Source of the DNA: Thalassospira profundimaris
Lineage (GTDB): Bacteria; Pseudomonadota; Alphaproteobacteria; Rhodospirillales; Thalassospiraceae
DNA: 64,000 nt
Reading direction: 5' to 3'
Assembly (NCBI RefSeq): GCF_003326675.1
Contig: NZ_JPWF01000001.1
Span: 62,001 to 126,000, forward strand
Shown: positions 34,860 to 42,378 of the stretch, piece by piece
How positions within the stretch are numbered: the first letter of the stretch is position 1
Layout: the number at the start of each line of letters is the position of its first letter
The notes under the pieces: generated by a model
Database searches by the model: none
What the model saw: the letters and a program-made list of their open reading frames with translations, nothing else
Told to the model about the DNA's origin: nothing
Made by a program: the position numbers and the translations under genes

Positions 34860-35900
34860 TTAGAAGTTCAGAACCAGACCGGTTACAGCGCCGTAACCGT
34901 CGTTGTCTGCGATGCTGGTGCTATCAGCTTCGTCGTCGAACCAGAAGATCGAGGACTTCCAGGTCACGCCTGCGCCGAGGGTGTAAGCAAGGCCAAGATC
35001 AACGGTGCTGATTTCGCCGGTGCTGGTTGCCGAGGTCGAACCAACTTTACGGTTGCCGTATTCAGCATAACCATAGGTCAGGGAAACTTTGGCTGCGTCC
35101 ATTGCGTAGGAAACGCCGATGTCATAAGCGTCGGTGTCGCCAGCGGTTTTGGAGTTTTCGCCCTGTGCGTAATCGTCTTCGATGTGACCCCAGGAGGAAC
35201 CAACTACGAAGTTACCAAAGCCAACGTTTGCACCAACGCCGTACCAGTTACCTTCGCCCCAGTTTTCACCGGTTGCGGAAACGCCGAAGGAAATGCCATC
35301 GAAGTCACCCTGGTAGCTAACACCAGCGGAAACAATGTTGTCGCCGGTACCATCGGTGTCGTTGTAGCTGCTTGCGCCGTTGCGCTGGCTGTCGTCAGCA
35401 TAGGAAACGCCAGCCTGGAAACCACCGAGGTTCGGGGTGAAGTAAGTCAGGCGGTTCTGGTCGCCGCTCGACGGAACGGTGTCGATCAGGTATGCGTCAA
35501 CCCAGTTGGTCAGGTCGCCATCGTTCACGCCTACCGGGCCAACAGACGGTGCGGTGATTGCGAGCGAGTCAGCAGCCGAATCGTCTTTACCCAGTTTAAC
35601 CTGGCCAAAGCCACCGTTTACGAACAGGTACTGTTCGTCGATCTGGTCAGAAGAGGTTTCGCCTTCGAGTTCGATGACTGCGCCAACTTCGATACCGTTA
35701 TCAAGGGTGGTTTTACCTTTGAAGTGAACTTCGGTGTCGGACTGGAATGCGTTTTTGGATTCGCCGACGTCCTGATCTGCTACACCAGCCCACTGCTCCA
35801 TGTAACCACCAACTTCAAGCTGGATTTTTTCAGAAGCGTGCGCGGAACCTGCAACTGCTACAGCGACGAGTGCGCTGGAAGCAAAAAGAATCTTTTTCAT
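34860..35900 (-). CDS. Outer-membrane porin (Gram-negative porin family), copy 1
   Basis: A 346-residue beta-barrel porin. The signal peptide MKKILFASSALVAVAVAGSAHA is cleaved before SEK. Alternating beta strands follow, including DTEVHFKGKTTLDNGIEVGA, EQYLFVNGGFGQVKLG (a conserved porin turn) and the final strand AVTGLVLNF ending in the C-terminal Phe used for BAM assembly. GAGGG lies just upstream of the ATG. It is a tandem paralogue of the porin at 36558-37547. The AT-rich region upstream is full of candidate operators. Confidence 0.92.
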   Translation of the reverse strand: MKKILFASSALVAVAVAGSAHASEKIQLEVGGYMEQWAGVADQDVGESKNAFQSDTEVHFKGKTTLDNGIEVGAVIELEGETSSDQIDEQYLFVNGGFGQVKLGKDDSAADSLAITAPSVGPVGVNDGDLTNWVDAYLIDTVPSSGDQNRLTYFTPNLGGFQAGVSYADDSQRNGASSYNDTDGTGDNIVSAGVSYQGDFDGISFGVSATGENWGEGNWYGVGANVGFGNFVVGSSWGHIEDDYAQGENSKTAGDTDAYDIGVSYAMDAAKVSLTYGYAEYGNRKVGSTSATSTGEISTVDLGLAYTLGAGVTWKSSIFWFDDEADSTSIADNDGYGAVTGLVLNF

Positions 35901-36557: not shown

Positions 36558-37547
36558 TTAGAAGGAGAGAGCAAGACCACTAACAACGCCGAAACCGTCG
36601 TTGTCGTTGGTGTTGGTGTCTGCATCGTCTTCGAACCAGAAGACAGAAGACTTCCAAACAACGCCAGCGCCGAGGGTGTAAGCAAGACCGAGGTCAGCAG
36701 CAGCAACTTCGCCATTGCCGTAGTCAGAGAAAGCGTAGGTTGCAGAAACGGTAGCAGCATCCATTGCATAGGAAACGCCGAAGTCGTAACCATCAACATC
36801 ATAGGTGCCGGTGGTGGAACCGAACTCTTTGTCTTTCTCGCCGTAGGATGCGCCAACTACGAAGTTAGCGAAGCCAACGTTGGCACCAATGTTGTACCAT
36901 TCACCTTCGTTTTTGCTTTCGCCGGTGGCAGCAACAGAAACGGAAACTGCGTCAAAATCACCGTTGTATTCTACACCAGCAGAGAAGACTTCACGACCAT
37001 TGGTGGTCTGATCGTTAGCTTCTGCATCAGCAGAGTCGGTGTAAGAAACACCAGCGCGGAAACCGCCAAATACCGGGGTGTAGTAGGTGATTTTCTGATC
37101 GTCACCGTCATCCCAGCTGTTGTTCGGCAGGTTCGAGGTGCTGATCCACTTGGTCAGGTCACCGTCGTTTGCACCAACCGGGCCAACTGCCGGAGCAGAA
37201 ATGGTCATATCACCAGCAGCGCCGTCTTCGGAACCAAGTTTAACCTGACCGAAACCGCCATTGACGTACAGGTACTGTTCATCGGTGGTGTTGTCGCCAC
37301 CTTCGATGCCGAATTCAATGGCTACACCAACTTCGATACCGTTATCGAGGGTGGTTGAACCTTTGAAGTGAACTTCGGTGTCGGACTGGAATTTGTTTTT
37401 GCCTTCAGCGTTGTTATCTTCGTCAGCGATACCAACCCACTGTTCCATGAAACCGCCAAGCGACAGGGCGATCTTTTCAGAAGCCTGTGCCTGACCTGCG
37501 AAAGCAACAGCGACGAGTGCGCTGGAAGCTACCAGAATCTTTTTCAT
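36558..37547 (-). CDS. Outer-membrane porin (Gram-negative porin family), copy 2
   Basis: A 329-residue porin. Signal peptide MKKILVASSALVAVAFAGQAQA, then barrel strands with DTEVHFKGSTTLDNGIEVGV, EQYLYVNGGFGQVKLGSEDG and the C-terminal VVSGLALSF with terminal Phe. Long stretches match porin copy 1, so the pair is a tandem duplication; the loops differ, as expected for diffusion or phage-exposed parts. Start: ATG 37547 with GAGGGA four bases upstream; the in-frame extension to 37919 is not coding. A palindrome TGCGG-TTGA-CCGCA sits in its leader at 37572-37585. Confidence 0.92.
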   Translation of the reverse strand: MKKILVASSALVAVAFAGQAQASEKIALSLGGFMEQWVGIADEDNNAEGKNKFQSDTEVHFKGSTTLDNGIEVGVAIEFGIEGGDNTTDEQYLYVNGGFGQVKLGSEDGAAGDMTISAPAVGPVGANDGDLTKWISTSNLPNNSWDDGDDQKITYYTPVFGGFRAGVSYTDSADAEANDQTTNGREVFSAGVEYNGDFDAVSVSVAATGESKNEGEWYNIGANVGFANFVVGASYGEKDKEFGSTTGTYDVDGYDFGVSYAMDAATVSATYAFSDYGNGEVAAADLGLAYTLGAGVVWKSSVFWFEDDADTNTNDNDGFGVVSGLALSF

Positions 37548-37802
37548 CTTTTCCCTCAACGTCTTTGCAAATGCGGTTGACCGCACAACAAAATTTAGGT
37601 GAGCAGCTATTTTGTTTTTTACCGCTCGGTTCGACGCTATGGAGCCAGTATTTTTCCGCGCAGTCAACGATACTGTGATTAAAATGCGACATTTTTCACA
37701 GCATGTTGCACAAAAACCACACATGTTTTTATTTGCCCGCTGCACTATCCGCCTTATAGTGCGGGCAACAGCTGACCGACATTCGTGATCAAGGGCTATA
37801 TT

Positions 37803-38366
37803 GTGAACAGTTCTTTCGCCAAATTCCTTACCATTGCTTCTGTTTCTGCATTTCTGGCAGGCTGCGCTGGCACCGAAGCCGATTATGACAGCTTTCCAGG
37901 CTCTGCCCCGGGCGACCAAAAAGTGAATGGTCGAAAAGCAACGCGCGCCGACATGAAAGAACAGGGGTCACTGTTTGGAGACGGAGGCCTGAACATATTT
38001 GGTGGCGAAGAAGGCCAAAAAGGGACTAGTGGTTCGGGCATTGGTGTTAACAGCTTCTTGTGGCGGGCAACGCTTGATACCTTGTCGTTTATGCCGTTGA
38101 ACTCCGCTGATCCGTTTGGCGGCGTCATTATTACCGACTGGTATGCACCCGCCGAAACCCCCAATGAACGCTTCAAACTGACGGCCTATATTCTCGGGAC
38201 GGCGCTGCGTTCTGATGCGATCAAGGTCTCGGTCTTCCGTCAGGTCAATATTGGCCCGAACCAGTGGCAGGATGCCGTGGTCGAGGAAGGAACAGTGACG
38301 TCTCTCGAAGATGCGATCCTGACCCGCGCCCGCCAGCTGCGCATTGACAGCGCAAATGCCCAGTAA
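37803..38366 (+). CDS. DUF3576 family lipoprotein
   Basis: A protein of about 187 residues conserved in Rhodospirillales-type alphaproteobacteria. It has a lipoprotein signal peptide with lipobox LAGC, then the DUF3576 core: IGVNSFLWRATLDTLSFMPL, DPFGGVIITDWYAP and ERFKLTAYILGTALRSDAIKVSVFRQ. Function unknown; an envelope role is implied by lipidation and by the linked lptE. Start: GTG 37803 has AGGG at seven-base spacing; GTG 37785 is an alternative. It opens a compact run with the LeuRS-like ORF and lptE. Confidence 0.87.
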   Translation: MNSSFAKFLTIASVSAFLAGCAGTEADYDSFPGSAPGDQKVNGRKATRADMKEQGSLFGDGGLNIFGGEEGQKGTSGSGIGVNSFLWRATLDTLSFMPLNSADPFGGVIITDWYAPAETPNERFKLTAYILGTALRSDAIKVSVFRQVNIGPNQWQDAVVEEGTVTSLEDAILTRARQLRIDSANAQ

Positions 38367-38372
38367 GGGCTA

Positions 38373-39044
38373 ATGACAGACTACACCTTATATATATCAC
38401 CCGAATACAACCCCCATTCGCTGGCACGTGACTGGGGGTTCTTCGTGCGCGAGAAAAATCCGAAAATCCAAGCGATTCTGACACCGCACGGGAACCTTGG
38501 CGCGTTGCGACAAGTGTTGTTCGAGCACGCAAAGGCTTGCGTAGCAACGAGTCGAAACCAGAAAAATCCCGCCACAATACGTCTCGGTAATAAACCAGCA
38601 AAGGTGTCAACCGATACCGTTTCCGATGACCCGGAACAATTATACCGGGAAGTCGGGCTTGATACGCTGTCGCTGGCACTTCTGGCAGATGTGCCAATTC
38701 ATCGACCTCTGCATCTCACTCACAATAACCTCGTCGGGCATTGGCGCTGGTTACGGCAGGTTTGGAGGCTTTGCTCAACTGTACCGCTATTGACCGCTGA
38801 ACCAATGGCATCGGAAGTACAGTTCGATGTTATTGAAGAAGTCTGGCAAGGGCGAAATAATACCGCTATCGCCCTGTTAAGATCGAGCTTTCAACAACTC
38901 ATATCGAGCACGGGCGCACCTCAGCCAAATGACTATCAAACTTTCCTTGCCAATCTAACTGTGTTTTGCCCTTTTATCGGAACCGAACTATTGTGGCGAC
39001 AAGGCATGGTCACGGCATCAAAAGACAAAGGCATGATTGAATGA
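38373..39044 (+). CDS. LeuRS-derived relic protein at the leuS locus (non-catalytic)
   Basis: A 223-residue ORF that lines up with the end of the catalytic core and the anticodon-binding domain of leucyl-tRNA synthetase. LARDWGFF and ILTPHGNL correspond to the segment before the KMSKS loop. The KMSKS loop itself has decayed to AKVSTDT (76-82), followed by DDPEQLYREVGLDTLSLALL (usually DPxxxxExYGADTxRLF), VGHWRWLRQVWRLC (VEGAxRFLxRVWRL), NNTAIALL (162-169) and VFCPFIGTELLWR (PFxPHIxEELW). The HIGH half, editing domain and C-terminal domain are absent. It starts 6 bases after DUF3576 and overlaps lptE by ATGA, the slot leuS occupies in relatives. Not a functional synthetase; role unknown. Confidence 0.75.
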   Translation: MTDYTLYISPEYNPHSLARDWGFFVREKNPKIQAILTPHGNLGALRQVLFEHAKACVATSRNQKNPATIRLGNKPAKVSTDTVSDDPEQLYREVGLDTLSLALLADVPIHRPLHLTHNNLVGHWRWLRQVWRLCSTVPLLTAEPMASEVQFDVIEEVWQGRNNTAIALLRSSFQQLISSTGAPQPNDYQTFLANLTVFCPFIGTELLWRQGMVTASKDKGMIE

Positions 39045-39547
39045 AATTGCGCGCGGTTTTTCCGATTATCGCACTCGTTGCCCTGACAACACTGAGTGCC
39101 TGCGGTTTTCGTCCGCTTTATGCGACCAAAGGCGATAACTATAATACCGCATCAAACATGGCACTTGTTAACGTGGCCGTCATCAATGACCGCGTTGGCC
39201 AGCTTACGCGCAATGCCCTTCTCGAGACCCTGACACCGCGTGGCCAAAGTGCCACACCGCTTTATGACCTGTCTGTCACGCTGAGCGAGTCGACCAGTGA
39301 ACAGGGTTTCACAAAAGATAACGAAGCAACCATTGCAGATTATCTGATTACTGCGACGTATCAGCTGACACGCCGACAGGACTCGAAAGTCCTGCGTAAA
39401 GGCAATGTAAGAACACGTACCAGTTACAATATTGTCGATTCTGATTTTGCCAGCATCGAAGCGGAGAATGCCGCCCAGGCAGATGCAGCACGCAACCTTG
39501 CCCAGCAATTGGCAAATCAGGTCGCGATCGGTCTGCGCGCACAGTAA
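39041..39547 (+). CDS. lptE: LPS-assembly lipoprotein LptE
   Basis: Partners with LptD in the outer membrane to insert lipopolysaccharide. The 168-residue protein has a lipoprotein signal peptide with lipobox LSAC directly followed by GFRPLYA, the hallmark of LptE. Next come a beta/alpha domain with VNVAVINDRVGQLTRNALLE and a C-terminal helix NAAQADAARNLAQQLANQVA. It overlaps the LeuRS-like ORF by ATGA and precedes holA, the usual alphaproteobacterial order. Confidence 0.93.
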   Translation: MKLRAVFPIIALVALTTLSACGFRPLYATKGDNYNTASNMALVNVAVINDRVGQLTRNALLETLTPRGQSATPLYDLSVTLSESTSEQGFTKDNEATIADYLITATYQLTRRQDSKVLRKGNVRTRTSYNIVDSDFASIEAENAAQADAARNLAQQLANQVAIGLRAQ

Positions 39548-39604: not shown

Positions 39605-40636
39605 ATGAAGCTTAAGGCAGCCCAAGTTGAAAACTTTTTGCGCGCTCCTGATGCCAAGGCACAGCTGGTCCTGATTTATGGTGAGGACGAAGGTTTGGTG
39701 CGCGAACGCGCCGTCCGTCTGGCTAAGACCGTAATCGAGGACCTCAAGGATCCCTTCCGCGTAATCGAGCTTGGCATTCCCCAGCTTAAGGAAGATGCCG
39801 GTCGATTGCGTGACGAAGCCGCCGCCATCAGCTTTGGTGGCGGGCGCAGGGTTATCCGAATCCGCGATATCGGTGAAGCACAGGCGCCGTTGATTGCAGA
39901 TTTTCTTGCCGATCCGGCAGGCGATGCTTTGATTGTCATCGAGGCCGGAAGCCTTGCGTCAAAGTCCAAATTACGCCAAGCGGTCGAGAAGGCAGGCAAT
40001 GGCATGGCCCTGCCCTGCTATGCCGATAGCAGCCGGGATATCGAGGGCCTGATCCAGTCGATCATGGAAGAACATAAATTGCGGATCGACCGCGATGCGA
40101 CACGCTATCTGGTCGCCAATCTTGGATCTGATCGCATGATTTCGCGAAGCGAGCTTGAAAAGCTTGCACTTTATGCGCTTAAGGAAGGTCAGGTTACGCT
40201 TGCCGACGCCATGGCCTGTGTCGGCGACAGTTCGGCACGTCATTATGATGATGTCATTCAGGCTGTGTCACAGGGCAATGTCGTCAATCTTGATGCTGCC
40301 CTGACCCGTCTTGTTGAAGAAGGCCTTAACCCGGTCGGCGCACTTCGCATGATGCTTGGCTATTTCCAGAAGCTGCATCTGGTCAAGGGACAGGTTGCCC
40401 AAGGTGTAAGTGCTGATCAGGCAATGAAATCACTTCGCCCGCCCCTGTTTTTCAAGGCAGCAGATCAGTTCCGGGCCAATCTGAACAACTGGGCTGTAAA
40501 CAACCTACAGCGTGCTCTGCAAATCCTGCTGGAGGCAGAGAAGGATTGCAAAAGTGGTTTGGCCATCCCGGAAACCATTGCACATCGCGCCATGATCAAA
40601 GTTGCAGTTGCTCGCCAGAAACAAGGTCGTCGCTGA
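39605..40636 (+). CDS. holA: DNA polymerase III delta subunit HolA
   Basis: The clamp-loader subunit that opens the beta sliding clamp. The 343-residue protein has the AAA+-like N-terminal domain (AQLVLIYGEDEGLVRERAVRLAK; IRIRDIGEAQAPLIADFLADP), the middle domain (ISRSELEKLALYALKEGQVTLADAMACVGD) and the C-terminal collar domain (NPVGALRMMLGYFQKLHLVK). Length and motif order fit HolA. It follows lptE by 57 bp as in related genomes. Confidence 0.94.
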   Translation: MKLKAAQVENFLRAPDAKAQLVLIYGEDEGLVRERAVRLAKTVIEDLKDPFRVIELGIPQLKEDAGRLRDEAAAISFGGGRRVIRIRDIGEAQAPLIADFLADPAGDALIVIEAGSLASKSKLRQAVEKAGNGMALPCYADSSRDIEGLIQSIMEEHKLRIDRDATRYLVANLGSDRMISRSELEKLALYALKEGQVTLADAMACVGDSSARHYDDVIQAVSQGNVVNLDAALTRLVEEGLNPVGALRMMLGYFQKLHLVKGQVAQGVSADQAMKSLRPPLFFKAADQFRANLNNWAVNNLQRALQILLEAEKDCKSGLAIPETIAHRAMIKVAVARQKQGRR

Positions 40637-40893: not shown

Positions 40894-42378
40894 ATGAAGA
40901 GTGCATTCCATCGCGTGCTTACCGCCGGTATCCTGTCCGGTGCCGCCTTGGCCGCGTCTGTATCGGCCTCGGCACAAACTTCCATCCTGCCGTCGGATGC
41001 GTATAACGCCTGTCCGCTCGATAAGGCGGAAATGGCAACATGGTTCCACGGCACTGAAATCACGCTCAATGGCAGCGTCATGGCCGCCAACAGCGCCAAA
41101 TTCCCGACGAACAATACCAATTGCGATTTCTTTAAGTGGTCAGCGCAGATGTTTCTCTGGCTGACATCACCGGCAGAGCTCAAAGCGACCGGTGATATGA
41201 GCTACATCTTCGATGCAGATGGCTTCTATGACGTTTCACCGGAAAACGACAAAGGCGTTCGCAAGTTCCTGAAGAACGACACACCGATCAACAAATTCCT
41301 GGTCCGCGTCAACAAACAGGACCAGGACGTTCCAACAACAATCGGTGAAACCGGCCAAGCCGGTGGCGGCGGTATCCTGATCTCCCAGGCCGGATCAATT
41401 GTCTATTACGGGATCCATACCAACACGTTCTATGGCGCCTTTTTAACCGGACAGAAAGCCGGCAAAATCAAACTTGGGACCTTCCCCACCACAGAAGCCG
41501 ACAAGGAGGAAGTCGTTGCCTATGCCAAGGCAAATGGCCTTGATGCATCTGCACCCATGGCGCTTGCGATCGAGTTGAAGACATCCTGGATCGATGCAAG
41601 TACCGTTTCAAATCCGGAAAGCTACGTTCAGGTAAAGGCAGAAGTCCCTAAATACGACAAAAGGGCAGCAACCGAATGGAAGCTTATCGGAACGGAAACT
41701 AAAACACTTGCTTTAACCGGCATGCATATTGTTGGTTCGGTTCAGGGACATCCCGAAATGATCTGGGCGACCTTTGAACATTCAAACAACACTCCCAATG
41801 GCACATTCTATTATCAAAGTGCCGCAAACGCGGTGACCGAGTCGGACTTTGATAAATCTGTGACCGGCTATACTTTCTATGCACCAAATACACCGGGTAA
41901 TGGCGTGAATGTCGAAAGTGCCCATATCGACAAAAGCGGCAATATCGTTCTGACCGCGCCAGCAACCCGAATTGTGCCGACCTCGGTTGTCCGCACCAAT
42001 CCGTGGGGAACACCGGGCGCGGATGCCAACAGCGCGACGGTCAATGCGCAAATCATCTCGATGAACAACAACGTGCTCGGCAATCTTGTACCGGGCGATC
42101 TTCGGGCCAATTATGTGCAGATCGGCTCGGTCTGGACATCAAACGGAATCATTCCACAAAGCCCGCTTCCCGACCAAAGCAACGAAGATATCGCCCTGCT
42201 TGCCCCGGAGGTCGGTTCATCGCGTTTGGCCAACACGACGATGGAAACCTATTTCCAGGGAACACAAATGGGCAATTGTTTCCTCTGCCATAATGCTGGC
42301 GGATCCCCTGCCCCAAAAGCCAGCTTCGGGGATGAAGAACTCAGTCACGTCTTCTTTGACCTAGCTCCGCTGAAATAA
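40894..42378 (+). CDS. Secreted protein with one C-terminal c-type heme motif, function unknown
   Basis: A 494-residue protein with a Sec signal peptide (about 1-27, cleaved after SASA). A long beta-rich region follows with few Cys, then a single heme-binding motif Cys462-Phe-Leu-Cys465-His466 close to the C-terminus, in the segment TTMETYFQGTQMGNCFLCHN. AGAGGGA precedes the ATG. I do not recognise a named family; the FLANKING pattern TTMETY...NCFxCH suggests a family of periplasmic electron-transfer or oxidase-like proteins. It stands alone between holA and the convergent parB operon. Confidence 0.75.
   Translation: MKSAFHRVLTAGILSGAALAASVSASAQTSILPSDAYNACPLDKAEMATWFHGTEITLNGSVMAANSAKFPTNNTNCDFFKWSAQMFLWLTSPAELKATGDMSYIFDADGFYDVSPENDKGVRKFLKNDTPINKFLVRVNKQDQDVPTTIGETGQAGGGGILISQAGSIVYYGIHTNTFYGAFLTGQKAGKIKLGTFPTTEADKEEVVAYAKANGLDASAPMALAIELKTSWIDASTVSNPESYVQVKAEVPKYDKRAATEWKLIGTETKTLALTGMHIVGSVQGHPEMIWATFEHSNNTPNGTFYYQSAANAVTESDFDKSVTGYTFYAPNTPGNGVNVESAHIDKSGNIVLTAPATRIVPTSVVRTNPWGTPGADANSATVNAQIISMNNNVLGNLVPGDLRANYVQIGSVWTSNGIIPQSPLPDQSNEDIALLAPEVGSSRLANTTMETYFQGTQMGNCFLCHNAGGSPAPKASFGDEELSHVFFDLAPLK

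Follow-up and report, generated by a model that had tools for sequence, protein, structure and literature searches.

Horizontal replacement of aminoacyl-tRNA synthetases (aaRSs) is common. What becomes of the replaced gene can seldom be seen, and the locus described here is a case in which the gene can apparently be traced through 29 genomes, in its old place, non-catalytic and under selection. Synthetase-derived proteins with other jobs are a known kind: HisZ, Glu-Q-RS/YadB and PoxA are all used beyond ordinary charging, and in the excerpted review text such aaRS-like proteins are presented as functions that arose from the catalytic sites of aaRSs, with Glu-Q-RS said to be without an anticodon-binding domain (PMC9437257, PMC7373986). 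Comparable, too, are LeuRS-I of Sulfolobaceae and LeuRS2 of Halobacteria, which still bind tRNA-Leu but charge it weakly or not at all; since LeuRS-I makes leucyl-adenylate and LeuRS2 charges weakly, both retain an active site (PMC9437257). In the part of that review available, the table lists no paralog function for leucyl-tRNA synthetase (LeuRS) (PMC9437257). LeuRS itself has alternative tRNA recognition and can aid intron splicing in fungi (PMC7373986).

The Thalassospira gene resembles LeuRS-I and LeuRS2 in being an extra LeuRS-derived protein next to a working LeuRS, with charging lost or much reduced, but differs in consisting of the non-catalytic part only. Judged by the same excerpts, it is also the reverse of HisZ, Glu-Q-RS and PoxA: the recruited synthetase relatives described there rest on catalytic sites, whereas this one rests on an anticodon-binding domain and has no catalytic motifs. 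It shares the traits of aaRS-like proteins, since it is synthetase-derived, stands beside an intact synthetase and appears to be selected as a protein after the loss of its charging motifs. The literature searched contained no report of a LeuRS remnant in Thalassospira, nor of any displaced LeuRS that survives throughout a genus, at its native site, as a derivative of the anticodon-binding domain. The locus thus poses a directly testable question, namely what a cell can do with a synthetase that has lost its enzymatic part.

The ORF lies at 38373..39044 (+) of the window, that is, of the whole 64,000-nucleotide stretch of DNA that was analysed, and runs from ATG to TGA without internal stops, encoding a LeuRS-derived mini-protein of 223 aa (hereafter the remnant). 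The DUF3576 gene (37785..38366, +; PF12100 at 8.8e-43, above the Pfam cut-off, and synteny) ends 6 bases before it. Downstream lie lptE (39041..39547, +; PF04390 at 1.6e-5, above the cut-off, and synteny) and holA (39605..40636, +), the latter named from synteny and from matches of its 343-aa product to DNA polymerase III delta models that fall below the Pfam cut-offs (best 2.7e-4). The lptE start codon begins at 39041, within the stop codon of the remnant, to form a 4-base ATGA overlap (39041..39044, +). When the locus was compared across the genus, as the first-pass annotation had proposed, the order DUF3576-remnant-lptE-holA was preserved in all 29 Thalassospira genomes (our own and 28 others). 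That annotation had also taken the site for the leuS slot of the order. Indeed, among 27 order genomes of other families with leuS, from which 11 were taken, one per family, every one has a full leuS between these flanking genes.

At the remnant/lptE junction, 21 of the 29 genomes have a 4-base overlap, two have none and one overlaps by a single base; the remaining five, the members L033-L037, have a gap of 4 bases. Outside the genus, nine of the 11 families (loci L079-L089) have an ATG in frame with lptE located 14 bases upstream of the end of the leuS stop codon, a conserved overlap between an LPS-assembly gene and a synthetase gene, and on this sequence comparison the leuS-lptE overlap looks ancestral. 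A Shine-Dalgarno-like motif precedes the remnant in only 13 of the 29 genomes, which we counted against reading it as a functional protein. In one divergent MAG (L032/L056) no ATG lies close to where the remnant usually begins, the nearest start codon being GTG.

We then investigated the descent of the remnant from LeuRS. The NCBIfam model leuS_bact (TIGR00396) matched the window protein P0001 at 2.8e-5 over profile positions 603-675, with 22.5 bits against a model cut-off of 548.4, and matched 22 of 23 members of the remnant family at E up to 0.1, the best at 4.7e-7. A profile of the remnant family in turn met Thermus LeuRS among the PDB sequences at 6.2e-8, over LeuRS residues 651-791, and hhalign paired the family with native LeuRS (probability 95.8, E 7.7e-9) over the post-KMSKS and anticodon-binding part. 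The single 223-aa protein was far less informative: a Pfam search with it found no family, and phmmer ranked Neisseria LeuRS (E 0.52) after unrelated proteins at 0.50-0.51. As to the fold, the comparison with LeuRS proposed at the outset was run with two AlphaFold2 models, one built from 23 sequences (pLDDT 86.9, pTM 0.86) and one in which a divergent-clade member was placed first (pLDDT 86.2, pTM 0.85). For each model all 50 Foldseek matches listed from the PDB were LeuRS, the best at E 2.6e-4; the TM scores by query length (0.39-0.52) and the rmsd values (4.3 to 11.0) mean that the agreement covers only part of the model. The anticodon-binding domain of LeuRS is thus recognizable in the remnant by both sequence and predicted fold, and on these comparisons the ORF is a real gene derived from LeuRS, as had been claimed from the letters alone.

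Along its length, we read the remnant as an internally deleted LeuRS, about a quarter as long as the parent enzyme. Codons 86-213 (38628..39011, +) carry the post-KMSKS segment and the anticodon-binding domain, recognized by NCBIfam, the PDB profile, hhalign and AlphaFold/Foldseek, and the profile matches are confined to this part. Codons 76-82 (38598..38618, +) read AKVSTDT and, by their position beside the aligned post-KMSKS segment, are the ruined KMSKS loop; this reading of the loop had been given before, and a KMSKS-like motif is absent from all 29 remnant sequences. The HIGH-like (HxGH) motif is equally absent from all 29, the length of 205-258 aa in all 29 leaves no room for the CP1 editing domain, and the C-terminal domain is also missing, in agreement with the parts first listed as lost. 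Codons 29-75 (38457..38597, +) form a variable stretch of about 50 residues, with a predicted helix at 42-58, which replaces some 600 residues of LeuRS. Codons 10-28 (38400..38456, +) are probably the LeuRS N-terminal helix (YNPHxL...W): they align colinearly with residues 2-20 of Thermus LeuRS with YNPH identical, a match not significant alone (4.2 bits, i-Evalue 320), and Y12, N13 and W21 pair with the Y, N and W of native LeuRS at equal spacing. In ungapped scans, in which all scores were negative, residues 10-24 placed the LeuRS N-terminus first in three and among the top three in eight of 11 native LeuRS, and residues 7-28 placed it among the top three in one of 11. The first-pass annotation, with its single contiguous LeuRS stretch from the KMSKS loop through the anticodon-binding domain, missed that the N-terminus is also LeuRS-like, if weakly on its own. 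Compared with bacterial LeuRS (leuS_bact), the remnant shares the post-KMSKS segment, the anticodon-binding domain, the operon position and probably the N-terminal helix, and lacks HIGH, KMSKS, space for CP1 editing and the C-terminal domain.

A copy of leuS elsewhere in the genome had been anticipated, and every one of the 29 genus genomes proved to carry a second-type leuS (partial in G022), located either on a different contig or at a great distance on the same contig. The encoded LeuRS is full length (1000 aa), and nine of the 29 were used in a tree, all nine with HIGH-like and KMSKS-like motifs. In this tree, which completed another of the proposed checks, they grouped with the Actinomycetota Tsukamurella and Nocardia at 100/99, apart from native alphaproteobacterial LeuRS; one row, G353, proved to be a wrong reading frame and was dropped from a later 83-column tree. 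The best matches in a plasmid collection were likewise Tsukamurella and Nocardia, at 48%. Among the matches listed from 398 phylum genomes, four genus members gave at least about 2084 bits at 89-100% identity, the next best after the genus gave 371 bits and 41% over 776 positions, and shorter pieces elsewhere reached 52% identity. The donor was found in neither the plasmid collection nor the 398 phylum genomes, and the branch is long. Judged from gene content and this tree, leucine charging in Thalassospira is now done by a foreign, actinobacterial-type LeuRS. Rhizobiaceae plasmids carry LeuRS (L111 and matches H3, H4, H7 and H10) that are 42-46% identical to the Thalassospira second type; the Sinorhizobium copy, the only one of them in the tree, fell outside native alphaproteobacterial LeuRS, which points to another xenologous leuS.

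We also looked for the stand-alone remnant beyond Thalassospira. A scan of the contig collection with two conserved remnant motifs gave 22 loci, all in the genus genomes G001-G028. Of 289 class genomes 52 were matched, two of them Thalassospira, and 47 of the 50 matches outside the genus lie in frames of at least 739 aa; the three shorter frames are 178 aa (G200, cut by a contig end), 546 aa (G108) and 424 aa (G333). Among 199 order genomes, 71 were matched by the family profile, comprising 23 genus genomes with the short ORF and 48 others, all in frames of at least 467 aa; 128 gave no match. With G108 and G333 judged by frame length alone, no stand-alone relative outside the genus was found by the motif scan or in these 289 class and 199 order genomes. 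Since the remnant and the second-type leuS both occur in all 29 genomes, the displacement should predate the common ancestor of the genus members, and the "very recent displacement" first offered as one explanation was rejected.

We next examined selection on the remnant, including the dN/dS analysis that had been proposed. The codon model gave omega 0.329 (lnL -13865.4), and fixing omega at 1 (kappa fixed) lowered lnL to -14189.4, 324 log units worse; by part, omega was 0.324 for the N-terminal, 0.359 for the middle and 0.271 for the anticodon-binding part. On the same topology lptE gave 0.094 and DUF3576 0.096, and the value for the remnant, 3.5 times that of lptE, was counted against a functional protein. 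Pairwise dN/dS medians, taken from 52 of 406 pairs after those with saturated or tiny dS were dropped, were 0.30 for the remnant, 0.086 for lptE and 0.075 for DUF3576. Also counted against a functional protein were the three closest pairs (L029-L031), at 0.83-1.05 with few changes. Across all 29 remnants, 31 of 211 codon columns hold an invariant residue, with synonymous variation at 23 of the 27 that are not M or W, and none of 50 neutral simulations along the same tree, in which stops were forbidden and all sites evolved at equal rates, gave a single invariant column. All 29 genomes keep the frame open, as expected for the intact ORF of the first-pass annotation, and none of them has any of the other five frames open. 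The conserved residues include old LeuRS ones (G95, D97, D106, P108, R111, R125 and W131) and ones peculiar to the remnant family (V107, P112, W126, R128 and C199), a mixture expected from new constraint on an old fold; R46, in the variable stretch, is also invariant. On these models the remnant is held by purifying selection as a protein and is not simply decaying. The term "degraded" therefore applies to the catalytic parts, which are gone, but not to the rest. A pure pseudogene was rejected by the open frame, the omega of 0.33 and the equal-rates simulation, the three closest pairs near 1 being the exception.

Taken together, we consider it probable that the displaced native leuS was turned into a non-catalytic protein with its own job, kept genus-wide in its old slot. 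The lineage would have acquired a LeuRS gene, closest to those of the actinobacterial type, before the Thalassospira examined diverged from one another, and the incoming enzyme would have taken over leucine charging. The native leuS in DUF3576-leuS-lptE-holA would then have lost its catalytic, editing and C-terminal parts, its frame at first being kept open, plausibly through the overlap with lptE translation, and the anticodon-binding domain and probably the N-terminal helix would have gained a job of their own under purifying selection. Both the native parent and this order of events are a reconstruction. Since the remaining part is under purifying selection (omega 0.33, 31 invariant columns), recruitment to a new role, the second explanation first offered, is favoured over recent displacement. 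Aminoacylation of tRNA-Leu is not expected of the remnant, given that the catalytic motifs are gone. By analogy with the role of LeuRS in intron splicing and with the tRNA-Leu binding of the archaeal duplicates, it would be a putative binding protein, its LeuRS-derived surface most likely contacting tRNA or some other RNA, the alternative being a protein ligand; its median pI of 6.7 and net charge of -1 are not typical of an RNA binder.

A more specific possibility, which we regard as worth keeping though unlikely, is that the remnant assists the foreign LeuRS or tRNA-Leu as an accessory factor, helping the incoming enzyme in trans with the host tRNA-Leu set. Its occurrence with the second leuS in all 29 genus genomes agrees with this, as does the example of LeuRS-I and LeuRS2, which retain tRNA-Leu binding with little or no charging (PMC9437257); the foreign LeuRS, however, is already full length at 1000 aa, and the near-neutral charge of the remnant also speaks against it. 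We consider it improbable that the free-standing anticodon-binding domain acts as a sensor of tRNA-Leu, or of how far it is charged, and adjusts the translation of the overlapping lptE; such control, if true, would couple LPS assembly to leucine supply.

Equally doubtful is that the ORF is a translational spacer, kept open only for ribosomes to reach lptE, with an idle protein. The ATGA overlap in 21 of 29 genomes, the apparently ancestral leuS-lptE overlap (nine of 11 families) and the closest pairs near a dN/dS of 1 fit a spacer, but an open frame alone yields neither an omega of 0.33 nor 31 invariant residues, two models fold with confidence, and L033-L037 show a 4-base gap and no overlap. 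A pure spacer was thus rejected by the codon models and the equal-rates simulation. Under our preferred reading, a recruited protein, the lptE overlap may explain why the gene was not deleted initially, but leaves the selected residues unexplained.

We also compared the remnant with both LeuRS types as possible parents, and it is most likely the displaced native leuS itself. The earlier term "paralogue" is better replaced by this reading, which the slot and the diagnostic residues favour: over 27 diagnostic columns, 251 cells are native-like and 86 foreign-like, nine of the 11 foreign rows being closely related. That the remnant instead arose from the incoming actinobacterial-type LeuRS, inserted where the native leuS was lost, appears very unlikely, given these counts, the native-type D106 and N13 in 29 of 29 remnants, the hhalign scores (native 70.5 and foreign 49.4, the foreign alignment being less diverse) and the occupation of the native slot. 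V130 (28/29) and G203 (24/29), however, are of the foreign type, and although a native profile of 11 rows outscores the actinobacterial-type profile in 22 of 29 remnants, one cut to six rows, of equal size to the latter, does so in only 18; the actinobacterial-type profile is higher in the other 11, including all five of the clade L033-L037. The family profile finds leuS of other families at 1.6e-12 to 7.0e-7; with E from 2.8e-10 to 2.9e-9 it also picks up the second leuS of the genus itself, in 16 of the 23 genus genomes. With the second leuS matched at strengths like the native ones and the profile scores mixed, sequence alone does not decide for the native parent, and neither does the 83-column tree, in which the branch to the remnant clade is 1.80. 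An unrelated inserted gene resembling LeuRS by chance has next to no probability and was rejected: the single protein gave no LeuRS domain by Pfam and only E 0.52 by phmmer, and many of the 128 order genomes unmatched by the family profile must hold leuS, but the family-level leuS_bact and PDB-profile matches, the fold and the colinearity to LeuRS stand against it.

Inspected by eye, an ORF of 494 aa elsewhere in the window, at 40894-42378 (+), starts like a signal peptide and has a heme-type motif, CFLCH, close to its end; a Pfam search with it found no family at E up to 1. On the opposite strand, two adjacent similar ORFs at 34860-35900 (-) and 36558-37919 (-) look porin-like by eye and are apparently tandem paralogues.
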